DNA from: Paraphysoderma sedebokerense
Taxonomy: Eukaryota; Blastocladiomycota; Physodermatomycetes; Physodermatales; Physodermataceae
Direction: 5' to 3'
NCBI GenBank assembly: GCA_025602915.1
Contig: JAHLJZ010000077.1
Span: 1-64,000 of the forward strand
Length of the DNA stretch: 64,000 nt
Each line of letters begins with the position of its first letter. The first letter of the stretch is position 1. Below the pieces are notes generated by a model. It was not told the origin of the DNA. It saw nothing but the letters and a program-made list of their open reading frames with translations, and searched no databases. Below, one piece after another: positions 5,295-53,949 of the stretch. Both the position numbers and the translations under genes were made by a program.

Positions 5295-6718
5295 ATGGAG
5301 TGGTACAAGGTTTTATCAGTTTGGCAGTCCAAGAGGAGGAAACTGGCAATCCTCGGATGTATAATCCTCATCGTCATCGTCTCTGCGGCTCTCGTCACCA
5401 CGCTAGTCATCCTTCCAATGAACCGCCCAGTTGAAGAAGATTCCTTCAGTTATACCTCAAGAGATATCAGTTTCTCTTCGGATGTTGCTCTTGCCCCGTC
5501 GTCCTCAAAATTGTCAAAATTTCTAGTTTTATTCTTTCCGGGTTTGTATTCTCCTTAGCAGTACCCCAGTCTTCGTTGTCAGCGAATTGAATTGACTTCG
5601 TTTCTCTATCCTAAATAAAAATAGGGACAAGAGGCGGTCCAAAAAACTATAGCACATTTCTTACACATCTAACAAAAATTCATAACCATCGAGTCATCAG
5701 CTTGTCGTACAATAATAACGTCTCGGGATTCGTTTATTGTCGAAACTCATCATCAACGTCTGGTTGTTACGAGGCTATGCGAGAGAATCAAATTTTCGGG
5801 AAAACCTCAGATAATTTGGGGTTACTAGTGCAAAGAGGATTTAAAGCTACCGATCAACAACTTGTGGTTGTCGATAGATTGAAAAGAGTTCTGGCCGAGC
5901 TGAACGAGAAATATCCTCAAGATCGTTGGTCAGATTTTATTCAGATTAACTCATCAAATAATGAGAAGGACGTTAAATGGGAGAAAGTTTTAGCAATGGG
6001 CCACAGTCAAGGTGCAGCAATTGCAGGTGTGTAAGTTTGCAATGAATTGTAGTCAGATCGAATCGTTCTCAACATGAGTCTGATCACTGATTTCATCTTT
6101 CATCGACAGCTTTTTTGGGATCACAATTACAAATCGCTGGAGTAAGACAGTTTGCTGGTCCCAGCGATGTGTATTCCGATGGAGTTACTGCCGGTTATAT
6201 TACCATGCCGTCAGCGACAACAAAAAGTCTATGGTAACACTTCGATATATTCTTTTCATGACTTTGGTTCCAACATCCCTAATTGAAATTTATCCGATAG
6301 GAGAACTTTTAGAAGTCGATATGATGTTTTCTGCGGCGCCGTCTCTACAATCACCACAGCTTTAGGTTATCAGAATTATGGTTCTCCAGTCGACATAGAG
6401 CCACCCCCTGCAACAAAGCTGAACCATTATACGAATGACTTTTGTAGCAACTCCTGCTTCAATACAATCCCGAAAGATAGTGTACCGATGACCACACATT
6501 CTAATTTTATTCAAGATTCCTTGTTGAATAGCAATGGTGGGAACAGAAAATGGTGTTTCGATTACAAATTACTTTGGGAGGAATTTGGAAAGGTAGAAGA
6601 ATGCGATCAAGTTAATTGCGTCGGTAATTTCTACTGCAATCCTGCACTTGGCTGCATAAAAAAGGAGATTATTTATCGTAATGAGACTAGTGAAGGATGC
6701 CAATGTCGAAAGCCGTAA
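5295..6718 (+). CDS. Membrane-anchored alpha/beta-hydrolase, tandem copy 3
   Basis: Exons 5295-5541, 5625-6026, 6110-6233, 6301-6718 give 396 residues. N-terminal hydrophobic anchor (about residues 17-40, ILGCIILIVIVSAALVTTLV), FLVLFFPG strand, nucleophile motif GHSQG, and conserved cysteine-rich end (CSNSC, CDQVNC, CNPALGC, CQCRKP). It is closer to copy 1 than to copy 2 in the C-terminal exon. Likely a surface or secreted esterase-like enzyme. The histidine and acid of the triad cannot be placed with certainty; the conserved THSNFIQD segment in the last exon is one candidate. Confidence 0.85.
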
Positions 6719-7215
6719 TGGCATTAATATTGATTGACAGTCTTAAAGGTTGAAGTCGTTAAGTCGAAGAAATATCTAATAGGTTGTAATTTATTGTAGC
6801 GTAACGGAATGGACAAGGAGAGAACTTACCTTGAAGATTAATCGAATACCCATATATATGTACATACTGTAACACAAATTATGCACTTTTCTTACTTGTC
6901 AGTACATCGCTCTCATAATTTTCCAGAAGACACGATATTTTTCGGGCTAACGTCGCACTATTCGGTTAATGGTCCGCTTTCATAACCCACATATTTCTAT
7001 AGAATTAAATAGTATACCCGAGATATACCCAAGAGCATTAATTACAATGCTTTGTTGCGGCATTAGTTGAAATGGTCTTTAGTTGGCAATATTGTCGCTG
7101 AACCTGAGATCTGGTCCAGGTAACTTGAGCCACACTCCAAAAAATTCCAGGTTCCGTCGATGCGACACCGCTCTGCTACCGGCGACAGAAAACTCTTTAA
7201 TCTATTAAACCAACA
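6719..7215. other. Intergenic region upstream of MAP1
   Basis: About 500 bp separating the hydrolase array from MAP1. It presumably holds the 3' end of hydrolase copy 3 and the MAP1 promoter. No further gene or repeat seen. Confidence 0.6.
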
Positions 7216-8885
7216 ATGACAGCAGAAAACATCGTACATCAATGTCAGACACCGAATTGTTCAAAGCCCTCAACTCTTCTCTGCCCTACTTGCATTAAAT
7301 TGGATTTACCAAAGGCCACCGCCTACTTTTGCTCGCAAGATTGTTTCAAGAAAACTTGGTCAACTCATAAACTACTACATGCTTTCTCTTCGAAAAGTAT
7401 AAACCTTTTCATCAATTAATGCGGATAATCTTGATGAGAATATTGGAATTGACAGAGTCTTTTTCGGCGACATTTAGGTCAAACTTACGATCCATTCGCT
7501 AAAAATTTTAGTTACACTGGACCCTTACGGGCATGCTATCCTTTAACCCCTAAACGAACAGTTCCTCGTCACATAAAGCGACCAGACTATGCAGATGATC
7601 CAAATGGTATGAGTGCCAATCTCAAGGGAATTTTTTTGGCAGAGGCGGGTGTTAACCTATCTTAATCCCGCTAGGTATTCCGCATTCCGAAATGGCCGTA
7701 TACAGGTCAACAAAAATTGAAGTTATGGAAGAAAACGATATTGAAGCTATTCGAACTGCTTGCAAGGTATAATATTATCTGCTGATAATTTTTACCGGTG
7801 GCAATTGCTGATTTGCTCATGCTTCCCCCTTGACTTTTTTCTAGCTCGGACGAGAAGTGTTGGATGTTGCGGCCAAAGCGATAAAACCTGGTATAACGAC
7901 GGACGAAATCGATAGAATCGTACATGAAGCTTGCATTGAGCGAAACTGTTATCCTTCGCCCTTAAATTATCATAATTTTCCGAAAAGTTGCTGTACATCG
8001 GTCAATGAAGGTGAGTTCTCAATGAAACGCAGATTTATTATGATGAAAATCATTAATCTAACGAAAATTTCTCCAGTTATTTGTCACGGCATTCCTGATC
8101 GCTATGTTCTCAAAGATTCGGATATAATCAATATTGATATTTCAGTGTATCACAAAGGCTATCACGCAGATTTGAACGAAACCTTTTTCGTCGGACGATC
8201 ATCATACTACACTTCACCTGACTCAAATGTGCCCTCGACATCGTACAAACTTATTAATACTACCCGTGAATGTTTGAAGGCCGCAATTGAGATGGTGAAA
8301 CCTGGAGTGTTTTATCGAGATTTGGGTAACGCCATTGAAAAGGTTGCGAAAAGTAATGGATTCAGTGTTGTTAAAACATATTGTGGCCATGGAATTCATA
8401 AACTGTTTCATTGTGCCCCAAATGTGCCTCATTATGCTAGTATGTCTTTTCTGTTTTTTTTATCTCCTTAGCCAGTATCTAAACATTTCATTCTTACATA
8501 CTCATAGAAAACAAAGCCGTCGGTGTGATGAAACCTGGCCATATCTTTACAATTGAACCTATGATTTCCGAAGGTACTGCCTTCGTTTTAAATACTTATT
8601 CGTTCTCGGTCTTTCCACCTTCACTGAGAGACTTCACTCTCCGTTTTTCTTCCACTCACTTTGATAATCTAATTTTTACAAATGTCGGTTAAACTAATAG
8701 GTACATGGCGTGACGTAACATGGCCTGATAATTGGACCGCTACCACAGCAGATGGAAAACGATCAGCTCAATTCGAACATACGCTACTAGTTACTGACAC
8801 CGGTTGCGAGATATTAACAAAAGGATTTGATCGTGACACCGTTATGGATGGGCTTGTGGAACCGAATTGGGATGAGCGGAAGTAA
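7216..8885 (+). CDS. MAP1: Methionine aminopeptidase type 1
   Basis: Seven exons: 7216-7396, 7478-7606, 7675-7766, 7845-8010, 8077-8439, 8508-8573, 8701-8885; 393 residues, usual for the eukaryotic enzyme. It removes the initiator methionine from nascent proteins at the ribosome. The N-terminus carries the C6H2 zinc finger (CQTPNC, CPTC, CSQDCF, then a His pair). The catalytic pita-bread domain shows HGIPD, the metal aspartates in [19 protein letters not shown], the metal histidine in [18 protein letters not shown], and the two metal glutamates in FTIEPMI and FEHTLLVT. All five metal ligands are present, so it should be active. A damaged duplicate of exon 4 lies about 200 bp downstream. Confidence 0.97.
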
Positions 8886-40536: not shown

Positions 40537-43449
40537 ATGACGTCGCCTCCACTCACCGTTGACTTTGTCAGGCGGTGGGATACCACCAAAGTTCAGGATT
40601 GGTTAAAAGAAAACAAGTTGTCAAAGTATACCAAAGTATTCAAAGGTAAATTTTATCTCCTGAATCCCAAAACCTAACCGTTGTATATGGAATGAGACAA
40701 TCGATGAATGAAAACCGTCTACCAGTCTTTAAAGTTTGTTTCATGTGTCTAAAATCTTATTTACATTGCACTCTATCTCTAGAAAACGACATCACCGGCG
40801 AAATTCTTCTCGAATTAAACCACAAATTTTTGAAAGAACTCAACATCTCTTCAGTCGGTGACCGAGTCCGAGTATTAGTAGCCATTAAAAACCTTCGAAC
40901 TTCATTATTCCTCTCATCTTCCACTTCCTCAACTCACTCTCTCCCCAGCCAAACTCCAGTTTCCCCACACTCACCACTGTTTAGTCCAACCAGGCAAAAA
41001 GGTTCAGTGACACCCGAAAATGGAATGTTGTCTTCGCATAACAATTCAAAAGAAAGTTTGGCTCCTCCTACGCCTGGGAAAGATTGGAAATTTTCATTGT
41101 CGAGGGGATTATTTGGAATGGTGGAAGCTACACCGGTAAATACGACAGAGAATAAAGAAAATAGTAGTAGCTTGGAAAGTAGTCAATCCAGTATGAAGGT
41201 GATTATCTCATCATCAGCATTCACTTTCAATAAGGTTTGGATCTAAATAGCATTTATCTTTCGTGCAATTAGAGATCTGAATCGGGTATCATGGCTATGG
41301 ATTTCGTTAAACAACATTGTCTCAAAGTAACGGGGGAAGATGACCAAACTCGTATCGTCAATATACAACATTTCACAGACGCAAAGAGCGTGATCGAAAA
41401 GATTTTACAGAAATTTAATATACAAGATGACCCAGACGTGTATTGTATATTTGTGACTAGCTCTCAACAAGGCGCTGGTGAGTTTTCTTTTTCTTTTCCA
41501 TTCTTCAAACATTCATAAACTCACCGTTATGATTTCAAGCCCACGCCCTCACGGATGAAGAATTGATAGCAATATGTCGGGACAGTGAACGAGTGGAACG
41601 AGAAAAATTGATTCTACGGAAAAAGCATCTACCATTTACGTCACAATCTGGGAGTCATAAAGGTCGTCAAAAGGTAGCCAAATTGGAAAACTTTTTCGGA
41701 GAACGAGTACCTGAACCACCACCACCTAAAACGAGAAACACGACACAAACGAAACTGAAGAATTTCTTTGGCGAGCGACCTCCCTCTGAATTGATTAGTT
41801 CCAATTTAGCAGAATTCTTCCCTAAAAACAAAATCGAGAAATGGGAGCAACGTAAATCACGGTCCATTCGTAAACGAAACGCCAATTCCATGATTTCATC
41901 GGTCTCAACCAACGTCTCCGAATCCTCAGAAGCAGATTTCTCAGCCGACTATTTCAACTCTTTACAACTCTCGTCCAGCAAAAATCAATCTCAATCTCCA
42001 TCCGCCACTTCCACAATCTCACAATCACCATCTTCCACACTCCAAAGACGAAAACCGTTACCACCATCTGAACCTATCCCCGCACCTATCGCGCCTCCAC
42101 CCACGTTCCTTCCCCCCGAACCACCCACTGTAACCGTTCAGAATTCAAGTACGAAACCAAAACCGAATATCGCGCCGCTCAAAATCGTTAGTCCGGCGGG
42201 TGAATCTTCTTCGTCGTCGTCGAACGCGTCGCATTTGTTGTCAGCCAAAACGACCGGATCGAGCACTAACTTGCGAAGTCCATCAGAAACAGATTTCGCA
42301 AATCAAAGTGGAAGTGGTTCCGAACCACAAAGTCCGACGTCACCGGCCAGTAAGTTGATTTCTATTTAATCCTTGCCTCATCAATTAAGTTGTACCTGAC
42401 CCAATTTTCTTGAAAATTTTTACTGCTACTGTAGATCCAGGTATCGTCAAATGGATGAAAGGTGTCATGATTGGTCAAGGTTCATTCGGGTCCGTATTTC
42501 TGGGTATGAATGCGCTCAGTGGGGAATTGATGGCGGTGAAACAAGTTGAATTGGCCGCGGAGAATGATAATCCCGGACAAGAACGGAAAAAGATGATGGT
42601 TGAAGCTCTACAACGGGAAATTTCGTTACTCAAGGATCTTGATCATCCGAATATTGTGCGATATTTAGGTACATATGTTGAATTCGTGATGTTCTGGTTA
42701 CCCATGTCGCCATTTTATCACTTATTAACTCGCTTGTAACACGTTTCAACAATTTTTCACAGGCTCTCAGATAGACGAAACGTATCTCAATATTTTCCTC
42801 GAATACGTTCCCGGTGGATCGGTTGCCTCACAATTAGTCACATGGGGACCCTACGAACCTGCGTTGATTAAAAAGTATTTGAAACAAGTGTTACTGGGTT
42901 TAAATTATTTACATGAGCGGGAAATTATTCATAGAGATATTAAAGGTGCTAATATATTGGTGGATAATAAGGGGAGTTTGAAAATTAGTGATTTCGGGAT
43001 ATCAAAGAAAGTTGAAAATGGTATGAATTTTTTTAGCAGACTATTATTTTGAATACTACCATTCCACAACTTGTTGTCACTCACTCTATTGTTTTTCTTT
43101 TTACCTTTACCCAGAAATCATGTCCCTCGGTCCTTCACAATCTCAAGGTCTCCAAGGCAGCGTCTACTGGATGGCCCCCGAAGTCGTCAAACAAATGCGA
43201 TACACTCGTAAATCCGATATCTGGTCTCTCGGTTGTCTCGTTCTAGAAATGTACACCGCTACTCATCCTTGGCCTAATTGTGGTCAGGTGGAAGCGATTT
43301 TTAAAATTGGGAGTTACTGTGTACCCGAGATACCACAAAATATTGGAGACGATGCTAAAGAGTTTTTGGATAAAACGTTTCAGTTGGAGTATTTAGATAG
43401 ACCTAGTGCGGAGGCGTTGTTGATGCATCCGTTTTTGACGGGGGTGTGA
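40537..43449 (+). CDS. STE11: Ste11-type MAP kinase kinase kinase
   Basis: Seven exons: 40537-40645, 40783-41198, 41273-41477, 41540-42349, 42435-42668, 42763-43020, 43115-43449; 788 residues. Upstream kinase of mating/filamentation and stress MAPK cascades. A SAM domain (about residues 12-80; [21 protein letters not shown]) is followed by a Ras-association-like region (about 180-245). Next comes the Ste11/Byr2 conserved segment with [20 protein letters not shown], here preceded by a second NFFGER. A Ser/Pro-rich linker leads to the kinase domain (about 520-785): [34 protein letters not shown]. All catalytic residues are present. It faces the receptor array tail to tail. Confidence 0.95.
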
Positions 43450-43763: not shown

Positions 43764-45275
43764 TTAAACATCCATGGTCCCGTCGATGCCAATTCCAAAC
43801 TTCTGAGTCACATGATTTTTTATCGCTTCAATTAAAGCTTTATCCGTTAAAAAAACGATCGCGTCGAGGGCACCCTATTTAAAATTGAAAATGGAAGGAA
43901 CGGGAATTGAGTTAACGTGGGAATGAAAGAAAAAGATGGAACTGGGTAGAATCATGTTTACTTGTGCAGAGAAAATAAAGTATTCGGTGATATAAACTGG
44001 GAATCTGTATTCACCAGTAGCGATTGCATAAGTCTAGAAACATTAAAAAAATAGTTAATAATAGTACCCAGCAATTTCCAAGGTTTCATTAAAATATTGG
44101 TGAACTCGTGCAAACTTACTTCAACGATAATCATGGTTCCTTGACAAAGTAACAACGTAAGAGGGTACAATACCAATCTACTTGCTACTCTCCCGGTATC
44201 AATTTTTTGGACACCACCCATTCCTGTAGTCTGTGTGACACCCAAACCACCAGAAACAGTTAAAGAAGGTGAAGTATTAGATTTAGTTGCCTCGCTGGAT
44301 TTTTTAGATCCGGAACCATCATTTGAGGATTTAAAATTGATGAGGTTATTGGTTGTAATGAGTTTACGAAGGACGGCGAATACAGTGAAACAGGAAGATA
44401 ACCAGGTTAATGCAATCCAACCGTATAGACAAGTCCATTGGAGAATGAGTGCCGTTGAAGGGTTTAATTCAAAGTTAAACCAACATAAATTTTCCGCTGT
44501 AGTTTAAGAATGAAAAAGAAAATTAAAGAGATTTGTTAATGGATTTTTTAAAAAATGTAAAAGGTTGTTTGGATGATAGGGTACAAAGTACAAACCGGTT
44601 GACCAACTGTATCCTTTAAAACCGATTGGTATAGCTGCAATGATCGTCGAAATAGCCATCACAGTGATTGAATGTTTTCGAATATTCAACCCTTCACTCG
44701 TCGCACTGTTCGATAAAAATACCATTTGTAAATGCTGATGGTAAAAATACAAGTCAATAACCACTTCGACTTTAAGTAAAATTGATCAACTTATTGTCCT
44801 GTGATGTTTTAGGAGACATTTACCAGATTAATGCCTAACACAAACCCCATTACACAAAGGGACGTGAATGCGTATCCCCACATTAAAAAATCACAAACAG
44901 AGGAATTCGACGGCGGACCGGGACTAAACGAAAGTGTTTCGGACATGAAATGACAAAACGCATCTGACAAGCAGATAAGAACGCTAATTTGAATTAACAG
45001 TAATCCGAGTTAGTTGGTACTGGTAAAGTCGACCAATGCTGTAATATAAACTTAAAGACCGAATAATGTGGTAGAATGATTAAATAATACTGTTACCTAA
45101 GTACTGTTACTTTTCTTTTTGAGAACGCTGCATCAATTTTACGTCCGTATAAAAATATTATGCAGGCTATGAAACAAAGGAATATAGAGATAGTATTGCC
45201 GGTGTGAAAAATCTTTTTTAGAACACTGACTTCGGTTTCGTCGAGCGTGATATCGTCGATGTTTGTGCCAGACAT
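43764..45275 (-). CDS. Seven-transmembrane receptor A (array copy 1, intact)
   Basis: Six exons on the minus strand: 45275-45097, 44983-44824, 44734-44596, 44496-44120, 44033-43962, 43874-43764; 345 residues. Seven hydrophobic helices in GPCR spacing: TM1 TISIFLCFIACIIFLYG, TM2 VLICLSDAFCHFM, TM3 CDFLMWGYAFTSLCVMGFVLG, TM4 ITVMAISTIIAAIPIGF, TM5 CLYGWIALTWLSSCFTVFAVL, TM6 ASRLVLYPLTLLLCQGTMIIVEV, TM7 YFIFSAQGALDAIVFLT. A long Ser/Gly-rich third cytoplasmic loop separates TM5 and TM6. It resembles cAMP-receptor-like/Gpr1-type fungal GPCRs, but ligand and class are uncertain. Exon lengths match copy D almost exactly. Confidence 0.85.
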
Positions 45276-46355
45276 TGTAATATTGGCTCAGTATTTAGGT
45301 AACGTAGTCTAAGATATGTGCGTCACGGATAGTTTGAAGAAGAAATTACTTGTGAGACCGGAACTGGAGACCGTAGGTAGGACCTAGAGGCAGTTGGAGC
45401 CAGAGGCTGCCAGAGGCCCGCAGAGGCAAAAAATTTGGAAATTCTGGGACAATGATAAATGTCATCCATATGTCTCTTTTGTGTTTGGCTGTCAACTGTG
45501 CTTTGTTCATGAACGAACTCCAGTAAAACGGATACCAGTCAAGTACATCACGACATGAAGACTCTGTCTCGGCCCTCGGAGTTCGGAGTTCGGACTGCCG
45601 ACCGTCGTCACTCGTCAGTACTCTCAGTACTCAGTAGTGCTTCGCATTCTTCAGAAAAGAAAAGGGGTGGAGCTGCCGAGCTATGAGGAGCACTTCATTT
45701 GTATGAGAGCCAAAGGCGGTGTAGACAGCATGACCAGACCCTGCCATACCTAGCTGTACTCACGGTCTATCGGCGACGTTGGCACTGTCCGCAGACCTAG
45801 CACTACTCTTTAGAATTAGGAGGAACAAATTCCACACGAGCATTGCGTGTTTCGTTATTCGCGTCTCCACTACGAACAAGAGTTTAGAGAACTCGCACCA
45901 GTATGTTCAAAAGAAATATCCGATGATTTCGACCCCACCAACACGCATTTGATGAGACTCATCCGTTTGTGTTTTTGTCGTAAATTGATCAACTTGCCAG
46001 CCTGCCTTTTGTCTCTCAACTTCAGTAACCAATCCATTTGATATTTCAACCACCTTACCTCCTTCAGCGACTTTTCCTTCACTTTAACTAGAAAACAAAT
46101 GGAAGTTTGGAGAAGAATTCATGAGACAAACATTAAACGTAGTTATTCCCTTGTATTGACTTATTTATTTCGTTAGTATCGCACTCGTCATATCACCCAA
46201 CACGCGGATATGCATGTATCCTGTCTGGACTTCTCACATCATAAGTATGTATTCTTTAAGAACTTTAACCTTCTGGCAATTACTTAAATATTAGATTGAA
46301 GTAATACGATTTATTTCAAACGCCAATTTTGAACCCATGAATGAAAAATACATAC
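45276..46355. other. Spacer between receptor A and pseudogene B
   Basis: About 1.08 kb. The missing exons 4-6 of copy B were searched for here and not found. A locally GC-rich, short-repeat segment (45345-45430, repeats of CAGAGGC) and a CAGTACTCTCAGTACTCAGTA run near 45615 are the only structure seen. Confidence 0.55.
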
Positions 46356-47001
46356 CGTCTGACCAACCATATCCGTCAAATGCTAATGGTATAAAAGATA
46401 TTATTGCGGAAAGTGTCAAGGTGATAATAATGTGTTTCTGGATATTTAACCCTTCACTTGTGGCGCTGTTGGACAGAAAAACCATATATAGGTGCTTTAA
46501 AATAAATAAAAACATTGTTAGTTATTCTTCCCAGCAATCAACATAGAGAGTGCAACAGTCGTTTCGTTGCCCGTAATAGGACTTTGAATCTACGATAATA
46601 ACAAGATACTGTATTACCAAGTTTACCCCGACAACAAATCCCATAGTAATTAGACAGCTGAATGTGTAACTCCACATTAAGGAGCCACAAACAGCACCGC
46701 TAGAAGGCCTCTCGGGGCTGACATTAAGAGTTGTAGAAAGTATATGGTGAAAAATCAGTTAGGCAAACAAGAAAACTAAGAATAGTCTTTGTCAATGGCA
46801 TCAATTGGATTTTTACTTTTAGAATTTACCTGAGTACAATCATTATTTCTTAATGAATGCGGCGTCAACCTTTTTTCCATAGACAAAAACCGAGCATGCT
46901 GTGAAGCAAAGTATTATCGATATAATATTGACGACTTGATCAACGCTGTCTAAAATCCGGACTTCAATTTCATCGAGAGTTATATCTTCAATATCATTCA
47001 T
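46356..47001 (-). pseudogene. Receptor B (array copy 2), truncated pseudogene
   Basis: Only exons 1-3 remain: 47001-46830, 46775-46618, 46494-46356. Exon 1 (MNDIEDITLDEIEV start) runs into a stop after a one-base loss near its end. Exon 2 is two bases shorter than in the intact copies, so the TM2-TM3 frame is broken. Exon 3 (HLYMVFLSNSATSEGLNI) is still full length at 139 nt. Exons 4-6 are absent. The intact splice sites indicate that decay is recent. Confidence 0.85.
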
Positions 47002-47431
47002 TATGCCGAATTGTATTTAGCGAAAAAAATATCGACGGTTTACTCCTTAATTTCGATAACGCGAGAAAGTCGATAACCTAGGCTTCTGGATGCAACTTTT
47101 CGAAAAATAAGAACGATCATTGCTGGTTCATATTTTAATTCCGCTAACCTAATGTAGTGTGGCACAAATTCTTCAGTGCTATAATGCATAACATGCCTCG
47201 TCAGTCAGTGCCTTCTGCAAATTGACATGAAAAAGTCGACTTACAGGGGTAGACAATTGGAAGTATTTGGGACACTTTTTGCTTTCAGAATAACTTTTAA
47301 ACTGATGATGTTGATGTCAGCTCAAATAACCATATATTAATAGAAGAATTAGTAATGCATTGTATCTGAATTCTGGAATATTTGATAGTTATATATTCTT
47401 CTGGAAACTGATAAAGTAACCCATAAGTTAC
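47002..47431. other. Spacer between pseudogenes B and C
   Basis: 430 bp of AT-rich DNA containing the former upstream region of copy B. Nothing else seen. Confidence 0.6.
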
Positions 47432-48823
47432 CTATGCTTTATTGCTGCTCTGTAATTTCTGGGCTATGAGTATTTTAAAGCTTTGAATAAGACTGCGATC
47501 TGATAGAAAAACTAATGCATTCAAGAATCCCTACTCATCAATCGATATGTCAATTGGATTTATCCAAATAATGATTTAATTTATTAAAAACCAAATGCAT
47601 CGTCACTTATAGGCGATAATAACGTACCTGGCCTCCTAGAAAGATATATTCAATCAAGTATGGAATGAATCTGTATTTACCAGTGATTAAGGATTCGGAC
47701 TACAGATGGAACACGTCAACAAGGCAGAGGCTGACAATTGTCAGATTTTAGAAACGGCGACTTACATCGAGGATAATCAGTATCCCTTGGCAAAGCAATA
47801 AAAATATTAATCTACTAGCAACTTTAGCTGTATCAATTTTTTTGACGGCTAAAATTGGCCATGAAGTCAAGATACTTTCAGTAGTCGGTTGTGTAGATAA
47901 ATCCATTTTGGTGGTTGCTGAACTACATCTAGTTGGGCTGTTCCTAATAATTATTATTGACTTTTCTCGATTGGCCGTTACTAACTTCCGTAGAACAGCA
48001 ACAACTGTAAAGCACGAGTAGAGCCATATCAGTGTAGTCCACCCATACAGGCAACCCCATTGGAGAACCAGGCCAGCAGTTGGTTCTGACTGAAGGCTGA
48101 ACCAGCAAATTTATTCAGCTGTACATTTACAGACAATAGGTCAATGAAAGTTTGTGAAGAATAGTTTCGTATTTACGAACCATCTGACCAACCGTACCCT
48201 TGAATGCCAAAGGTATGGAGCTGCAGTGGCGGAAATTGTTACAGCAGCAATTCTGTGTCTTCGGACATTTAACCCTTCACTTGATGCGGAGCCTGATAGA
48301 AAAATCATTTGCAAGTGCTTTACATTAATAGAATTGTAGTTAGCTGCCTCATTAGTTATTTCGGTTGTTATTCTCTATATTTCTGACGGAATTACTTTTA
48401 TAGATGTAAAAGATGGTTTACCAAGTTCACCCCGGCAATCATTCCCATCGACATTAAGCAGCTTAATGTGTACCCCCACATAAGAGATTCGCACACGAAG
48501 TCACTCAGTGGTTCTTCCGGAATGAGATTAAGAGACATAGACAATACGTGGAATAGTAAATCAGAGGAACATATGATAAAACTGAGAGAAATGGTTATGA
48601 CTCTATGATTCTTCCAAAAACCCAAAACATTACAACAATTTTAAATCTTAAAAGTTATTTTATTTCTTGAATATGGGGCATCAAGTTTTCGCCCGTATAA
48701 AAATACAATGCATGCTACGAAGCAGGCCAATATTGATGTGATATTAGCAGTTTGGTCGACACTATCCAAGATTGCGATAGCAATTTCGTCAAGAGCGAAA
48801 TCGTTGGAATTTGTTTCTGTCAT
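47432..48823 (-). pseudogene. Receptor C (array copy 3), decaying full-length pseudogene
   Basis: All six exons are recognisable: 48823-48647, 48581-48422, 48317-48181, 48118-47766, 47699-47628, 47530-47432. Lesions: exon 1 is two bases short and its donor reads AT instead of GT; exon 3 is two bases short; exon 4 has an in-frame TAA in its first codons. Exons 2, 5 and 6 are still open (exon 6 begins GFLNALVFLSDRS, like copy D). The first exon retains a good start and TM1. The gene cannot make a seven-helix receptor unless transcripts are processed in an unexpected way. Confidence 0.85.
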
Positions 48824-50085
48824 TATCCAAATTTGTCTTGAGTATTGAGATAGTTAAAAAATTTGAAAGAGAGGAAATAAAGAATTTTAAAGAGCGGAAA
48901 GTTATATCATATATGCGCATGGGATAAAATTTTGACCGCATAGACTATTTGCATCATGAATGTCGATGGCACAATTGCGAGCTGGCCCAGTGTTAAAGAG
49001 ATAATCTGTGTGCTGAGAAATGATTTGTAAAATGACCTGGGCTAGGTCTGGGGCAAAGAATTAACTTTGCGGAATCGCGCAGAGAGCGACGATGTCTCCA
49101 TCAGTTTAAAACTTCAACAACATTCCCACACACATTGTTTCATAAGTATATCATTCTTGGGCCAGTCGTGTCTCCAGTAACGCCCACTCGCCCAGGCCTC
49201 TGACCTGATAGAGAATTACTAATTCACTGGCGTGTAAGAACTAGTGTAGCACCACTTTACAACTCTTGCACTCCTCCCCATGCCACGCAAAATGGCAAGT
49301 CAATTATAGGTAGATTCTATGTAGCCAATCGCATTTATAGTGGATGGGAACAAATCCCCAACAGCTCATGAGTTTTACCTCGATGGTTGATTCAGGAAAT
49401 TCCCCGTTTAACAAAGGAGCTGATATTATTTCATTGAAAAAGGGTGGTGTCCTAGAAGTTGCCATTCACCACTGAATCGCGGACCCTGATGAGTCATGGG
49501 CAATTTTACTTTAGCATATTGTGCTGATCTGTATCCAAAGTTACGTGCTTCAAACTGATGACGGATATGTCATCGCCCATACCATCCTATTTTCAAATTT
49601 GATTGAACAAAAAAAAATATCCAAATGCTTAATCAAAACAATTGATACTTTGGGAAGCGTTATAAGAATCCCTAAATGATAATTCGGTCTATATCGGCTC
49701 AAACCCGTTTCGCTTGCTATTCATTCATAATTAATAAAGATTAGGTGTGCACATATAATGATGGAGTATCAGGTTCACTCGTCATCCGAAGTATCAATCT
49801 TTAATTTCTGCTTCTGTTAGTCTATTTGTCTTGGTTAACTGATGTACCTGCCTCCGACATTCGCGAACCTTCATTCAAGCCGAAAAATGCTCCCAGAAGA
49901 TGACGGTTTAGACTTTATTGGCCTAGTATTCGGCGAAACATATTCTGCCTGAAGGGTCGTTCGTTTGTGGCCAACTGCAAATGAATTTTATTTATGGGCA
50001 ATTATCGGATACATTTGCGGTACCATATAAATTGAGAGTAGACAACCATGTTTCTAACAGCAATAATTAAATCCGTAGTCTTCTT
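48824..50085. other. Spacer upstream of receptor C
   Basis: 1.26 kb. Around 49264-49305 a C-rich block (CTCCTCCCCATGCCACGCAA) resembles the block at 51936-51978 upstream of receptor D, indicating that the duplicated unit included the 5' flank. No other gene is supported. Confidence 0.6.
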
Positions 50086-51553
50086 TTACGAGGGGCTAAT
50101 ATTTACACTACTCTTTTTACTGGGCCAACGTTGCAGCAATAACTCTTTAAACCATTGCATAATATTTCTGTCGGTTAAAAAGACAAGTCCATCGAAGAAG
50201 CCCTGTTCAAGAAAAGACAAGAATTTATTTAGTGCTAGTCACTTGGACCTTGAATTCAATTTTCACTTCTATTTGGTCAACAGTTTCTACGAAAAGTAGT
50301 TCGCGTACCTGGCCCGATAGAAAAATATATTCAATGACGTACGGAAGAAATCGGTATTCACCGGTAATAGTTGCGGTTGTCTGAATATCAAACAAAAATT
50401 AACAATATTAGCAAAACATTGTTCGTATACATAGGTTGATAAGGTGAAACATAGGACACTTACCTCGACGATTATCATTGTGCCTTGGCAAAGCAGAAGG
50501 ATAATTGGATACAAAATCAATCTACTGGCAACTTTAGCTGTATCAATCTTTTTACCCCCAGCCTTGGAGGATCTAGAGGAGTTGTTAGATACAGAGGGCT
50601 GTGGTTGTGATAAACCATCGGTTGCAGTTCTCGAGTTATCTTTGATGGAGCTACTTTTGAATGTTGACAATTGAAAGAACTTTTCTCGATTGGCTGCTAC
50701 CAATTTCTTTAAAACAGCAAACACAGTGAAAAATGAAGAGAGCAATGTGAGTGAAATCCAACCGTACAAGCATGTCCATTGAAGAACTAGCGCAGTAGTT
50801 GGATTTAATTCAAAGTTAAACCAGCAGAGTTGCTCAGCTGCGTGGACGAAGTGGAGCGGTTCACGAAAAGGGTGTCAATACAGAAAATATGAAAAGAGCT
50901 GAGTTCATGACTAACCGTTTGACCAACTGTATCCTTTAAACGCCAAGGGTATGAAAGCTAAAATTGAGGACAGAGCCAGTACTGCTGCCGTGTGTTTCCG
51001 AATGTTCAATCCATCACTTGCTGCGTTGCTAGATAGGAAAACCATTTGCAAATGCTTAGAATAATATATGTCAGCATTTATGTCGGGAACATTATATATA
51101 GTTTAAGTTCATGATAGTCATATATACCAAGTTTACACCAACGACAAAGCCCATTGATGTAAGACAGCTGAAGGTATATCCCCACATTAGAAATTCACAA
51201 ACTGAGTCGCTAGATGGTTTTTCTGGGCTGATACCAAGTGAAATTGATAGTATATGGTAAATGCAATCGGAGAGACACACAAGAAAACTGAGAAGCGCGA
51301 TTTTCAGTCAGTCGGACGTGCAGAGAAATGGTAGACTCGTTTGATGTACTGTATGCTAACGTATATCTCTATACCTTAGGACAGTCATTTTTCTTTTAGT
51401 AAATGCGGCATCAACTTTTCGTGCATACAAAAATACTACGCATGCTACGAAACTAAGCAATATAGCCATGATGTTGATACTTTGGTTAATTTTTCGCAGA
51501 ATGCCAACCTCGGTTTCGTCGAGGGTGATATCATCAATGTGCGTTTCAGACAT
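50086..51553 (-). CDS. Seven-transmembrane receptor D (array copy 4, intact)
   Basis: Six exons: 51553-51375, 51287-51128, 51054-50916, 50837-50464, 50380-50309, 50202-50086; 346 residues. Five exon lengths equal or nearly equal those of receptor A (179, 160, 139, 374, 72). N-terminus MSETHIDDITLDETEV, TM1 INIMAILLSFVACVVFLYA, TM3 CEFLMWGYTFSCLTSMGFVVG, TM5 CLYGWISLTLLSSFFTVFAVL, TM6 ASRLILYPIILLLCQGTMIIVEV, TM7 EYIFLSGQGFFDGLVFLT. An upstream in-frame extension exists to 52006 but contains no domain, so the start matching the paralogue was chosen. Fungal GPCR, ligand unknown. Confidence 0.85.
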
Positions 51554-52497: not shown

Positions 52498-53949
52498 ATG
52501 ACCGTATTGAATATGCAATCTTTTGGCAAATCCATTTCCGCTTATTCGTATTTATCCAAGCGTTTTTTCTCCATAAATGTTCGATTGCAGCATCAAAATC
52601 CATTGGTAGTGTCTTAGTCTCTTTTCCAACGCCATGGGTTCCAGTTGCAAATCCAATTATAACGCATTTTCATATATATCTAATCAAATTTGCACACTGA
52701 TCGATAGGGATTACCTCAAAAAGGACCGCCAGGAATCGCACATCGAATGGCGAAGGGATTGCCAGTTAAAAAGCCGATAGACGGAGTAAAACATATCATC
52801 GCAGTGGCATCCGGGAAAGGCGGTGTGGGGAAAAGTACCGTCGCAGGTATGAAGTACTTTGTTACATAAGAGCATCTGTTGGTTGTTATCTTGTTTTCAT
52901 AAATCCATTGTTGATCCTCATTTCTCTTATTATCTTTCGTTGTTTACCCTGGTTCCTGCCGTGGCCCAGTCAATTTGGCAGTCTCTTTATCAAATCTTCA
53001 ACAAAAGGTAGGACTACTGGATGCAGATTTATTTGGTCCGTCGATACCTAGAATGACGAACCTAAGCGGCGAACCTGAATTGACTTCCCGTAGGTATCTC
53101 TTGCCTTGACTACGGCTGAGATTGGGAAATAACCTTTCCACCTCACCTAATAAGAGAACAAACTACGACCACTTCAGAATTACGGAATCAAATGCATGTC
53201 TATGGGTTTTATGGTTCAAGAAGATAACCCGGTAGTGTGGCGAGGCTTAATGGTCATGAAAGCCTTAGAACAGCTGATAAGAGATGTCGATTGGGGTGAA
53301 TTGGATATCTTGGTAATTGATATGCCCCCAGGAACGGGTGATACTCAGTTAACTATTTCACAGCAAGTGCCTTTGGATGGTATGGTGCAGATTACAACTA
53401 TGACTGTTGATATGTCGTTTTAATTTGCATTTGAAGCTAAGACTGACCTCATGTCTAGGCGCCGTTATCGTATCGACACCTCAAGACATTGCACTGATTG
53501 ACGTTAAAAAAGGAGTGAATATGTTCCGAAAAGTCGATGTACCGGTAAGTGCGAAAGTTTATCTTTGTTACTCCGTTTCAAAGAATTGAAATTCACTAAA
53601 TGTATTATGGTCTGATCCGCTTAATTAGATATTTGGAGTAGTGGAAAATATGGCTTACCACCTTTGTCCCAATTGTTCTCACAAGTCACATATATTCGGA
53701 AATCACTCAAATCTTGTCAAGTCTCTCTCGACGTTACAAGATAACATCGAAGAAGGAAGCAATAATCAAGGTACATCTAACAGTAAAAATGGAGTGCAAG
53801 TCATTGGGCAAATACCATTAAATGAGGATATTTGCGCTCTTAGTGACGCTGGGACGCCAATTGTGGTGATGAAAAGAGGGAGTGAAATTGAAAAGGAATA
53901 TAGAACTATTGCTGAAAAAGTGTTAGGTCTCTTGAGCAACAAAAAATGA
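52498..53949 (+). CDS. IND1: Mitochondrial Fe-S P-loop protein Ind1/NUBPL
   Basis: Six exons: 52498-52605, 52708-52846, 52970-53089, 53155-53379, 53459-53544, 53629-53949; 332 residues. Ind1 delivers Fe-S clusters for assembly of respiratory complex I. Exon 1 is an arginine/serine-containing presequence ([12 protein letters not shown]). The deviant Walker A is complete (GKGGVGKST), followed by [13 protein letters not shown], the family segment [30 protein letters not shown], and the metal-binding C-x2-C in HLCPNC. Presence of Ind1 implies a lineage with complex I. A short insert with Asn/Ser precedes [12 protein letters not shown]. The intron between exons 3 and 4 was placed to keep the conserved frame. 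Confidence 0.94.

Follow-up and report, generated by a model that had tools for sequence, protein, structure and literature searches.

The subject of this analysis is a tandem array of four related genes in Paraphysoderma sedebokerense, a blastocladialean of the Blastocladiomycota described, in the part of the literature consulted, as a parasite of microalgae. The window (the entire 64,000-nucleotide stretch of DNA analysed) is part of a contig of 111,821 bases within an assembly of 27.3 Mb. Designated A to D in order of ascending coordinates, all four copies lie on the minus strand. The outer two, A (45275-43764) and D (51553-50086), are intact and comprise six exons each, with lengths of 179/160/139/377/72/111 nucleotides in A and 179/160/139/374/72/117 nucleotides in D, encoding 345 and 346 amino acids, respectively. 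The intron phases 2, 0, 1, 0, 0 are common to the two genes, and all 10 of their introns, ranging in size from 73 to 113 nucleotides, are of the GT...AG type. The spliced proteins agree letter for letter with the NCBI entries BKA69DRAFT_837894 (P0002) for A and BKA69DRAFT_1127777 (P0001) for D, each annotated as 'hypothetical protein'. These spliced models bore out the coordinates of the original prediction together with its shared six-exon structure and intact outer copies. The array and the exons of A and D are as follows, with exon limits taken from the spliced models and features given as transmembrane helices (TM) and intracellular and extracellular loops (ICL and ECL):

43764-51553, minus strand: the array, its exact ends being the stop codon of A and the start codon of D
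45097..45275, minus strand: A exon 1 (start codon; N-terminus, TM1, ICL1)
44824..44983, minus strand: A exon 2 (TM2-TM3, with the Cys of TM3)
44596..44734, minus strand: A exon 3 (ICL2, TM4)
44120..44496, minus strand: A exon 4 (ECL2 Cys-Trp, TM5, ICL3, TM6)
43962..44033, minus strand: A exon 5 (ECL3, start of TM7)
43764..43874, minus strand: A exon 6 (end of TM7, helix 8, tail, stop codon)
51375..51553, minus strand: D exon 1 (start codon; N-terminus, TM1, ICL1)
51128..51287, minus strand: D exon 2 (TM2-TM3)
50916..51054, minus strand: D exon 3 (ICL2, TM4)
50464..50837, minus strand: D exon 4 (ECL2, TM5, ICL3, TM6)
50309..50380, minus strand: D exon 5
50086..50202, minus strand: D exon 6

The A and D proteins are 59% identical (200/339 aligned residues). 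With blastn, exons 1-5 of D found counterparts in the array at E values of 2.7e-7 to 4.6e-24 (best per exon, at most 7.3e-10); exon 5 matched C and not A, and the sole match of exon 6 was to a copy on another contig, C45 (E 3.5e-4). Since 600 codon-shuffled D exons gave no blastn match at E<=1e-3, this similarity is not a product of chance.

The inner copies, B and C, are damaged. Exons 1-3 of B are recognizable (172/158/139 nucleotides), the first two with a broken frame, whereas neither blastn nor tblastn detected any remnant of exons 4-6 ahead of the start of A. Exons 1-5 of C were recognized by search and its exon 6 only by reading it alongside C45 and D; this copy has no GT at the expected donor of exon 1, a frame break in exon 3 and a stop codon in exon 4. 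Located by sequence comparison, their exons are:

46830..47001, minus strand: B exon 1, frame broken
46618..46775, minus strand: B exon 2, frame broken
46356..46494, minus strand: B exon 3, open
48647..48823, minus strand: C exon 1, GT donor absent at the expected place
48422..48581, minus strand: C exon 2, open
48181..48317, minus strand: C exon 3, frame broken
47766..48118, minus strand: C exon 4, stop codon near its start
47628..47699, minus strand: C exon 5, open (also matched by blastn)
47439..47530, minus strand: C exon 6 relic (end of TM7, helix 8), read by eye with its lower end chosen, no blastn match

With disabling lesions in otherwise recognizable genes, B and C are, by their sequence, pseudogenes of the same family. 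The decay proposed earlier for the inner copies therefore stands, including the loss of exons 4-6 from B and of a donor from C, although the damage to B had been understated by its two frame breaks. C45 is also broken, with stop codons in exons 1 and 4, lost acceptors and frame breaks, so that three of the five close copies (B, C and C45) are dead. A tree placed C45 as the sister of C with a support of 100, and grouped A with B with a support of 60; a fifth, broken copy closest to C fits the birth-and-death evolution that had been proposed. A tblastn search of the genome with D at E<=0.01 returned 25 rows, comprising 16 from the array, five from C45, three from C13 and one from C119, the last two being more distant relatives described below. 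The segment DDITLDETEV near the N-terminus, originally considered conserved, is so in A and D; B carries it with changes, in C it has eroded, and the more distant relatives lack it. Raw counts of insertions and deletions relative to D were left unused, because intact A acquires many too in its variable ICL3 and tail. A repeat element replacing the lost exons of B or parting C from D was considered and set aside; the intervals 45290-46300 and 48860-50080 each occur once in the genome, as judged with a search tool that skips very common words.

The divergence between A and D across 289 shared codons amounts to 73% of synonymous sites and 22% of nonsynonymous sites; when all 339 aligned codons are counted, their synonymous distance reaches saturation. 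With synonymous sites so close to saturation, the duplication is old and a recent one is ruled out. The ratio of the nonsynonymous to the synonymous proportion (pN/pS) is 0.30 (0.24-0.35), and the intact pair is under purifying selection. Between C and C45, the synonymous and nonsynonymous distances are 0.53 and 0.22, and pN/pS is 0.49 (0.38-0.65), as expected for copies that spent some time under constraint before being freed from it; the ratio alone does not date the loss.

More distant intact relatives were found in the same genome and are referred to here by contig: C119 (377 amino acids), C13 (444 amino acids) and C37 (421 residues modelled). The five intron positions of A and D are all present in C119 (with two extra introns) and C37 (with one extra), and three of them in C13. 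The C37 model corresponds to residues 1-421 of NCBI BKA69DRAFT_1125765 (P0005), which is labelled 7tm_1; it resembles A and D further in its pair of Cys residues in TM3 and ECL2, RLxxYP in TM6 and QGFF in TM7, with 29% identity to D, and differs in its extra intron, its long ICL3 and its passing of PF00001, unlike A and D. The C119 model differs from a transcript-like protein, P0003, at 5 of 377 residues. P0003, which derives from contigs of at most 1437 bases and may represent a transcript of another strain, supports the splicing of C119; the NCBI model BKA69DRAFT_117833 (P0004; C119:48185-49843), unlike the 377-residue P0003, retains introns. A near-identical pair of still more distant relatives occurs on contigs C7 and C177. 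Protein searches (5733-7993 word-sharing candidates) returned no relative from a named other species, but this absence is weak evidence because C13 was never recovered and one search missed P0003 and P0004, which another had detected. Within that limited reach, the family appears to be confined to this fungus.

Structure prediction bore out the proposal of a seven-transmembrane receptor. The best of five AlphaFold2 models of D, with a predicted local distance difference test (pLDDT) score of 68, is a seven-helix bundle matching solved structures of G-protein-coupled receptors (GPCRs), and all 50 Foldseek matches listed for it were GPCR structures. Hydropathy and a charge count predicted the N-terminus to be outside and the K/R-rich loops inside; the five members A, D, C119, C13 and C37 have 12-34 residues before TM1, and A and D share a short, acidic, presumably extracellular N-terminus and a Ser-rich ICL3. 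A disulfide between TM3 and ECL2 is probable in both proteins. At the moderate confidence of the D model, then, A and D are predicted to be GPCRs by fold. Assignment to a class by fold led nowhere, as classes F, A, B2 and B1 fell within about 2 Z units of each other and were too close to separate.

Using the helix limits of the predicted D model as boundaries, A and D are identical at 36/43 predicted extracellular residues, 132/215 in the helices, 11/14 in ICL1 and ICL2, and 20/67 in ICL3 and the tail. The surplus of the extracellular side over the helices gives an uncorrected Fisher p of 0.005. It had been suggested that differences in loops and tails reflect divergence in either ligand or coupling specificity; with the extracellular side the most conserved and ICL3 and the tail diverged, the pattern fits diverged coupling or regulation and does not support divergence of the ligand. 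Hence, the ligands of A and D are probably the same or closely alike, and the two receptors, since their differences lie in ICL3 and the tail, would be distinguished by their choice of G protein or their shut-off.

Taken together, the locus is best read, at a probability of roughly 0.82, as an old tandem array of GPCR genes in which A and D are intact receptors and B and C pseudogenes; ligand sensing, G-protein coupling and a functional split between A and D are the inferred parts of this reading. A GPCR with an N-terminus of 12-25 residues and no ectodomain binds its ligand within the helix bundle or at ECL2, while ICL2, ICL3 and helix 8 contact the G protein. A small, soluble ligand would thus enter the bundle through the conserved extracellular face and switch it, and ICL2, ICL3 and helix 8 would pass the signal to one of the heterotrimeric G proteins of the fungus. 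Matches to Galpha were found in the genome on C58, C37, C43 (two) and C40, and at identical places on C54 and C103.

Several observations weigh against this reading. The D model is moderate, having been built on an alignment of four sequences with its five versions ranging from 45 to 68 in pLDDT, and an earlier run, the alignment of which included the NCBI model retaining introns, reached just 38.6. Pfam returned no match for A and only chance matches below cut-off for D. The D/ERY motif was not found in TM3 of the five members, and NP is absent from TM7, where all five have QG. A transcript-like protein (P0003) is known for the relative C119 only. Finally, the contrast between extracellular and transmembrane parts involves 43 residues with boundaries from a moderate model, and the extracellular surplus is absent when D is compared with C119, C13 or C37.

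The class of receptor was addressed with Pfam, profile comparisons and the motif lists for GPCR classes in the portion of PMC3251606 consulted. Invariant in the five members are, in D numbering, K53 and R54 (ICL1), D67 (TM2), C90, C164, P149 (TM4) and G309 (TM7). According to the same portion, R/K in ICL1, Asp in TM2 and the Cys residues of ECL1 and ECL2 are features of cAMP receptors that are common to rhodopsins (PMC3251606). TM3 ends in NLHL, NLHL, TMHL, ALHL and AAHL in the five members. Neither C13 nor C119 gave a Pfam match above cut-off, and matches below it (DUF3923, PgaD, WH_Egal, TBX2-3_TAD, Reticulon, ZSWIM4-8_C and Fun_ATP-synt_8) were set aside.

That the family is a divergent offshoot of the rhodopsin-type receptors (7tm_1), which are numerous in this fungus, is a possibility with some claim to attention, albeit an unlikely one. 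C37 passes PF00001 with 31.8 bits against a cut-off of 30.5 and carries the 7tm_1 label in the protein collection, and the array shares with the rhodopsin-family GPCRs of zoosporic fungi (class 15, PF00001) its fold, the Asp in TM2 and the two Cys residues. A and D, however, lack both a PF00001 match (as do C13 and C119) and the D/ERY and TM7 NP motifs, and in hhalign comparisons the array scored about 20 against six rhodopsin-type proteins of the same genome, barely beyond four reversed controls (13.8-18.0).

The cAMP-receptor-like identity originally guessed for the array was not supported, and it is improbable that A and D are true members of class 5 (Dicty_CAR) that have drifted past the Pfam model. 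Like the fungal cAMP-receptor-like GPCRs (class 5, PF05462), the array has Asp in TM2, a basic ICL1 and the Cys pair, and its profile aligned collinearly over TM1-ECL2 with Dicty_CAR-type genes of the same genome, scoring 25.9 with A, D, C119 and C13 and 32.7 with C37 added, above the rhodopsin-type proteins and the reversed controls. Presumably, the Cys-Trp in ECL2 and QGFxxxxVF in TM7 also resemble class 5. Yet the hhalign probability was just 4-21%, the array scored 27.0 over 11 columns against its own reversed profile, C37 alone scored 16.2 with the cAMP-receptor set compared with 20.0 with the rhodopsin set, and the former set consisted of two partial gene models only. Furthermore, neither A nor D matched PF05462 at E<=1, a scan of the genome with that profile gave matches over the Pfam cut-off on C4, C94 and C33 only (four rows), and NxY in TM3, a motif of the cAMP class in the portion consulted (PMC3251606), was not found in the five members. 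Y97 is present in four of the five and Y184 in all five; they may or may not correspond to the TM3 and TM5 Tyr residues of class 5. On these shallow alignments, hhalign led nowhere as a guide to class; the profiles lean slightly toward cAMP-receptor-type genes, far from significance, and C37 alone leans to neither.

Other classes offered partial likenesses. A PDB search by single sequence gave no match, and by profile the best, human ADGRG3/GPR97, was not significant (E 0.036 with profile A1 and 0.36 with A3) and strongest over ECL2-TM5. In common with Adhesion/secretin GPCRs, the array has Gly in TM7, Pro in TM4 and Cys in ECL1/2 (motifs from the consulted portion of PMC3251606), but there is no 7tm_2 match in A, D, C13, C119 or C37, no N-terminal domain and no conserved Pro in TM5; P172 of D alone was seen there, right where the helix begins, and it is not kept in C13. 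W95 is invariant at the outer end of TM3 and may or may not correspond to the Adhesion TM3 Trp. Frizzled/Smoothened (class F) structures led the best-scoring class A rows by only about 1, at 10% identity, and no Fz domain precedes the helices, there being just 12-34 residues before TM1 and no Pfam match.

A seven-helix protein other than a receptor, whether a transporter, enzyme or channel, would accord with the want of a characterized relative and of the usual rhodopsin-family activation motifs D/ERY and NPxxY; given the GPCR matches of the predicted fold, we regard it as very improbable. Least probable is that B and C are whole, their apparent breaks arising from sequencing errors, allelic mis-assembly or unusual splicing: identical or near-identical pairs in the assembly (C4/C94, C54/C103 and C7/C177) could be uncollapsed haplotypes, but three exons are missing from B, lesions number three in C, C45 as the sister copy is likewise broken, A and D have no lesions on the same contig, a genome search with D found no second haplotype of the array, and pN/pS is higher between C and C45 than between A and D.

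Beyond the GPCR array as such, A, D, C119, C13, C37 and the C7/C177 pair might form a GPCR class of their own, limited to Paraphysoderma or the Blastocladiomycota and mixing cAMP, Adhesion and Rhodopsin features, that would serve motile stages in sensing host or mate and in which A and D would turn a single ligand into two different intracellular responses; this extension is speculative and rather unlikely as a whole. To our knowledge, very few receptors of flagellated fungi have a known ligand. In the parts consulted, 17 classes of fungal GPCRs were found by way of known receptors and Pfam domains (PMC12842992), flagellated fungi are described as retaining receptor types missing from most fungi (PMC3251606, PMC12842992), and Adhesion GPCRs are given as absent from fungi (PMC12842992) or as reported there, Allomyces included (PMC3251606). 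The main text of PMC12842992 makes no mention of 'Paraphysoderma', and no paper pairing this name with 'GPCR' was found among the open papers searched.

As gene-family evolution, dead members within a tandem array of receptors are ordinary; what is new here is the subfamily, the missing Pfam match of A and D, and the contrast between their outside and inside. As neither A nor D has a Pfam family match and both bear a hypothetical annotation, profile-based counts of GPCRs can miss receptors in this fungus. The result is a small, well-defined subfamily of orphan receptors in a destructive parasite of commercial algal cultures; its two intact neighbouring genes offer a testable split, the same outside and different inside.

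With regard to the remainder of the genome, PF00001 gave 54 rows, 39 of them above the curated cut-off alone, where rows may be exons or haplotype copies; they were noted on C9, C24, C35, C53, C90, C18, C16, C39 and C95, many of them clustered within a contig. The six single-frame proteins read among them show NP in TM7 and a motif resembling ERY in TM3. For a fungus, an expansion of rhodopsin-type receptors on this scale seems more remarkable than the array. The paired contigs C4/C94, C54/C103 and C7/C177 suggest either uncollapsed haplotypes or recent duplications. On one flank of the array, plus-strand frames with a SAM domain and a protein kinase (40650-43449), which by their arrangement we take to be probably a single STE11/BYR2-like mitogen-activated protein kinase kinase kinase gene, end 315 bases from the end of A; on the other flank, the plus strand encodes a NUBPL-type P-loop ATPase (PF10609) at 53154-53946.

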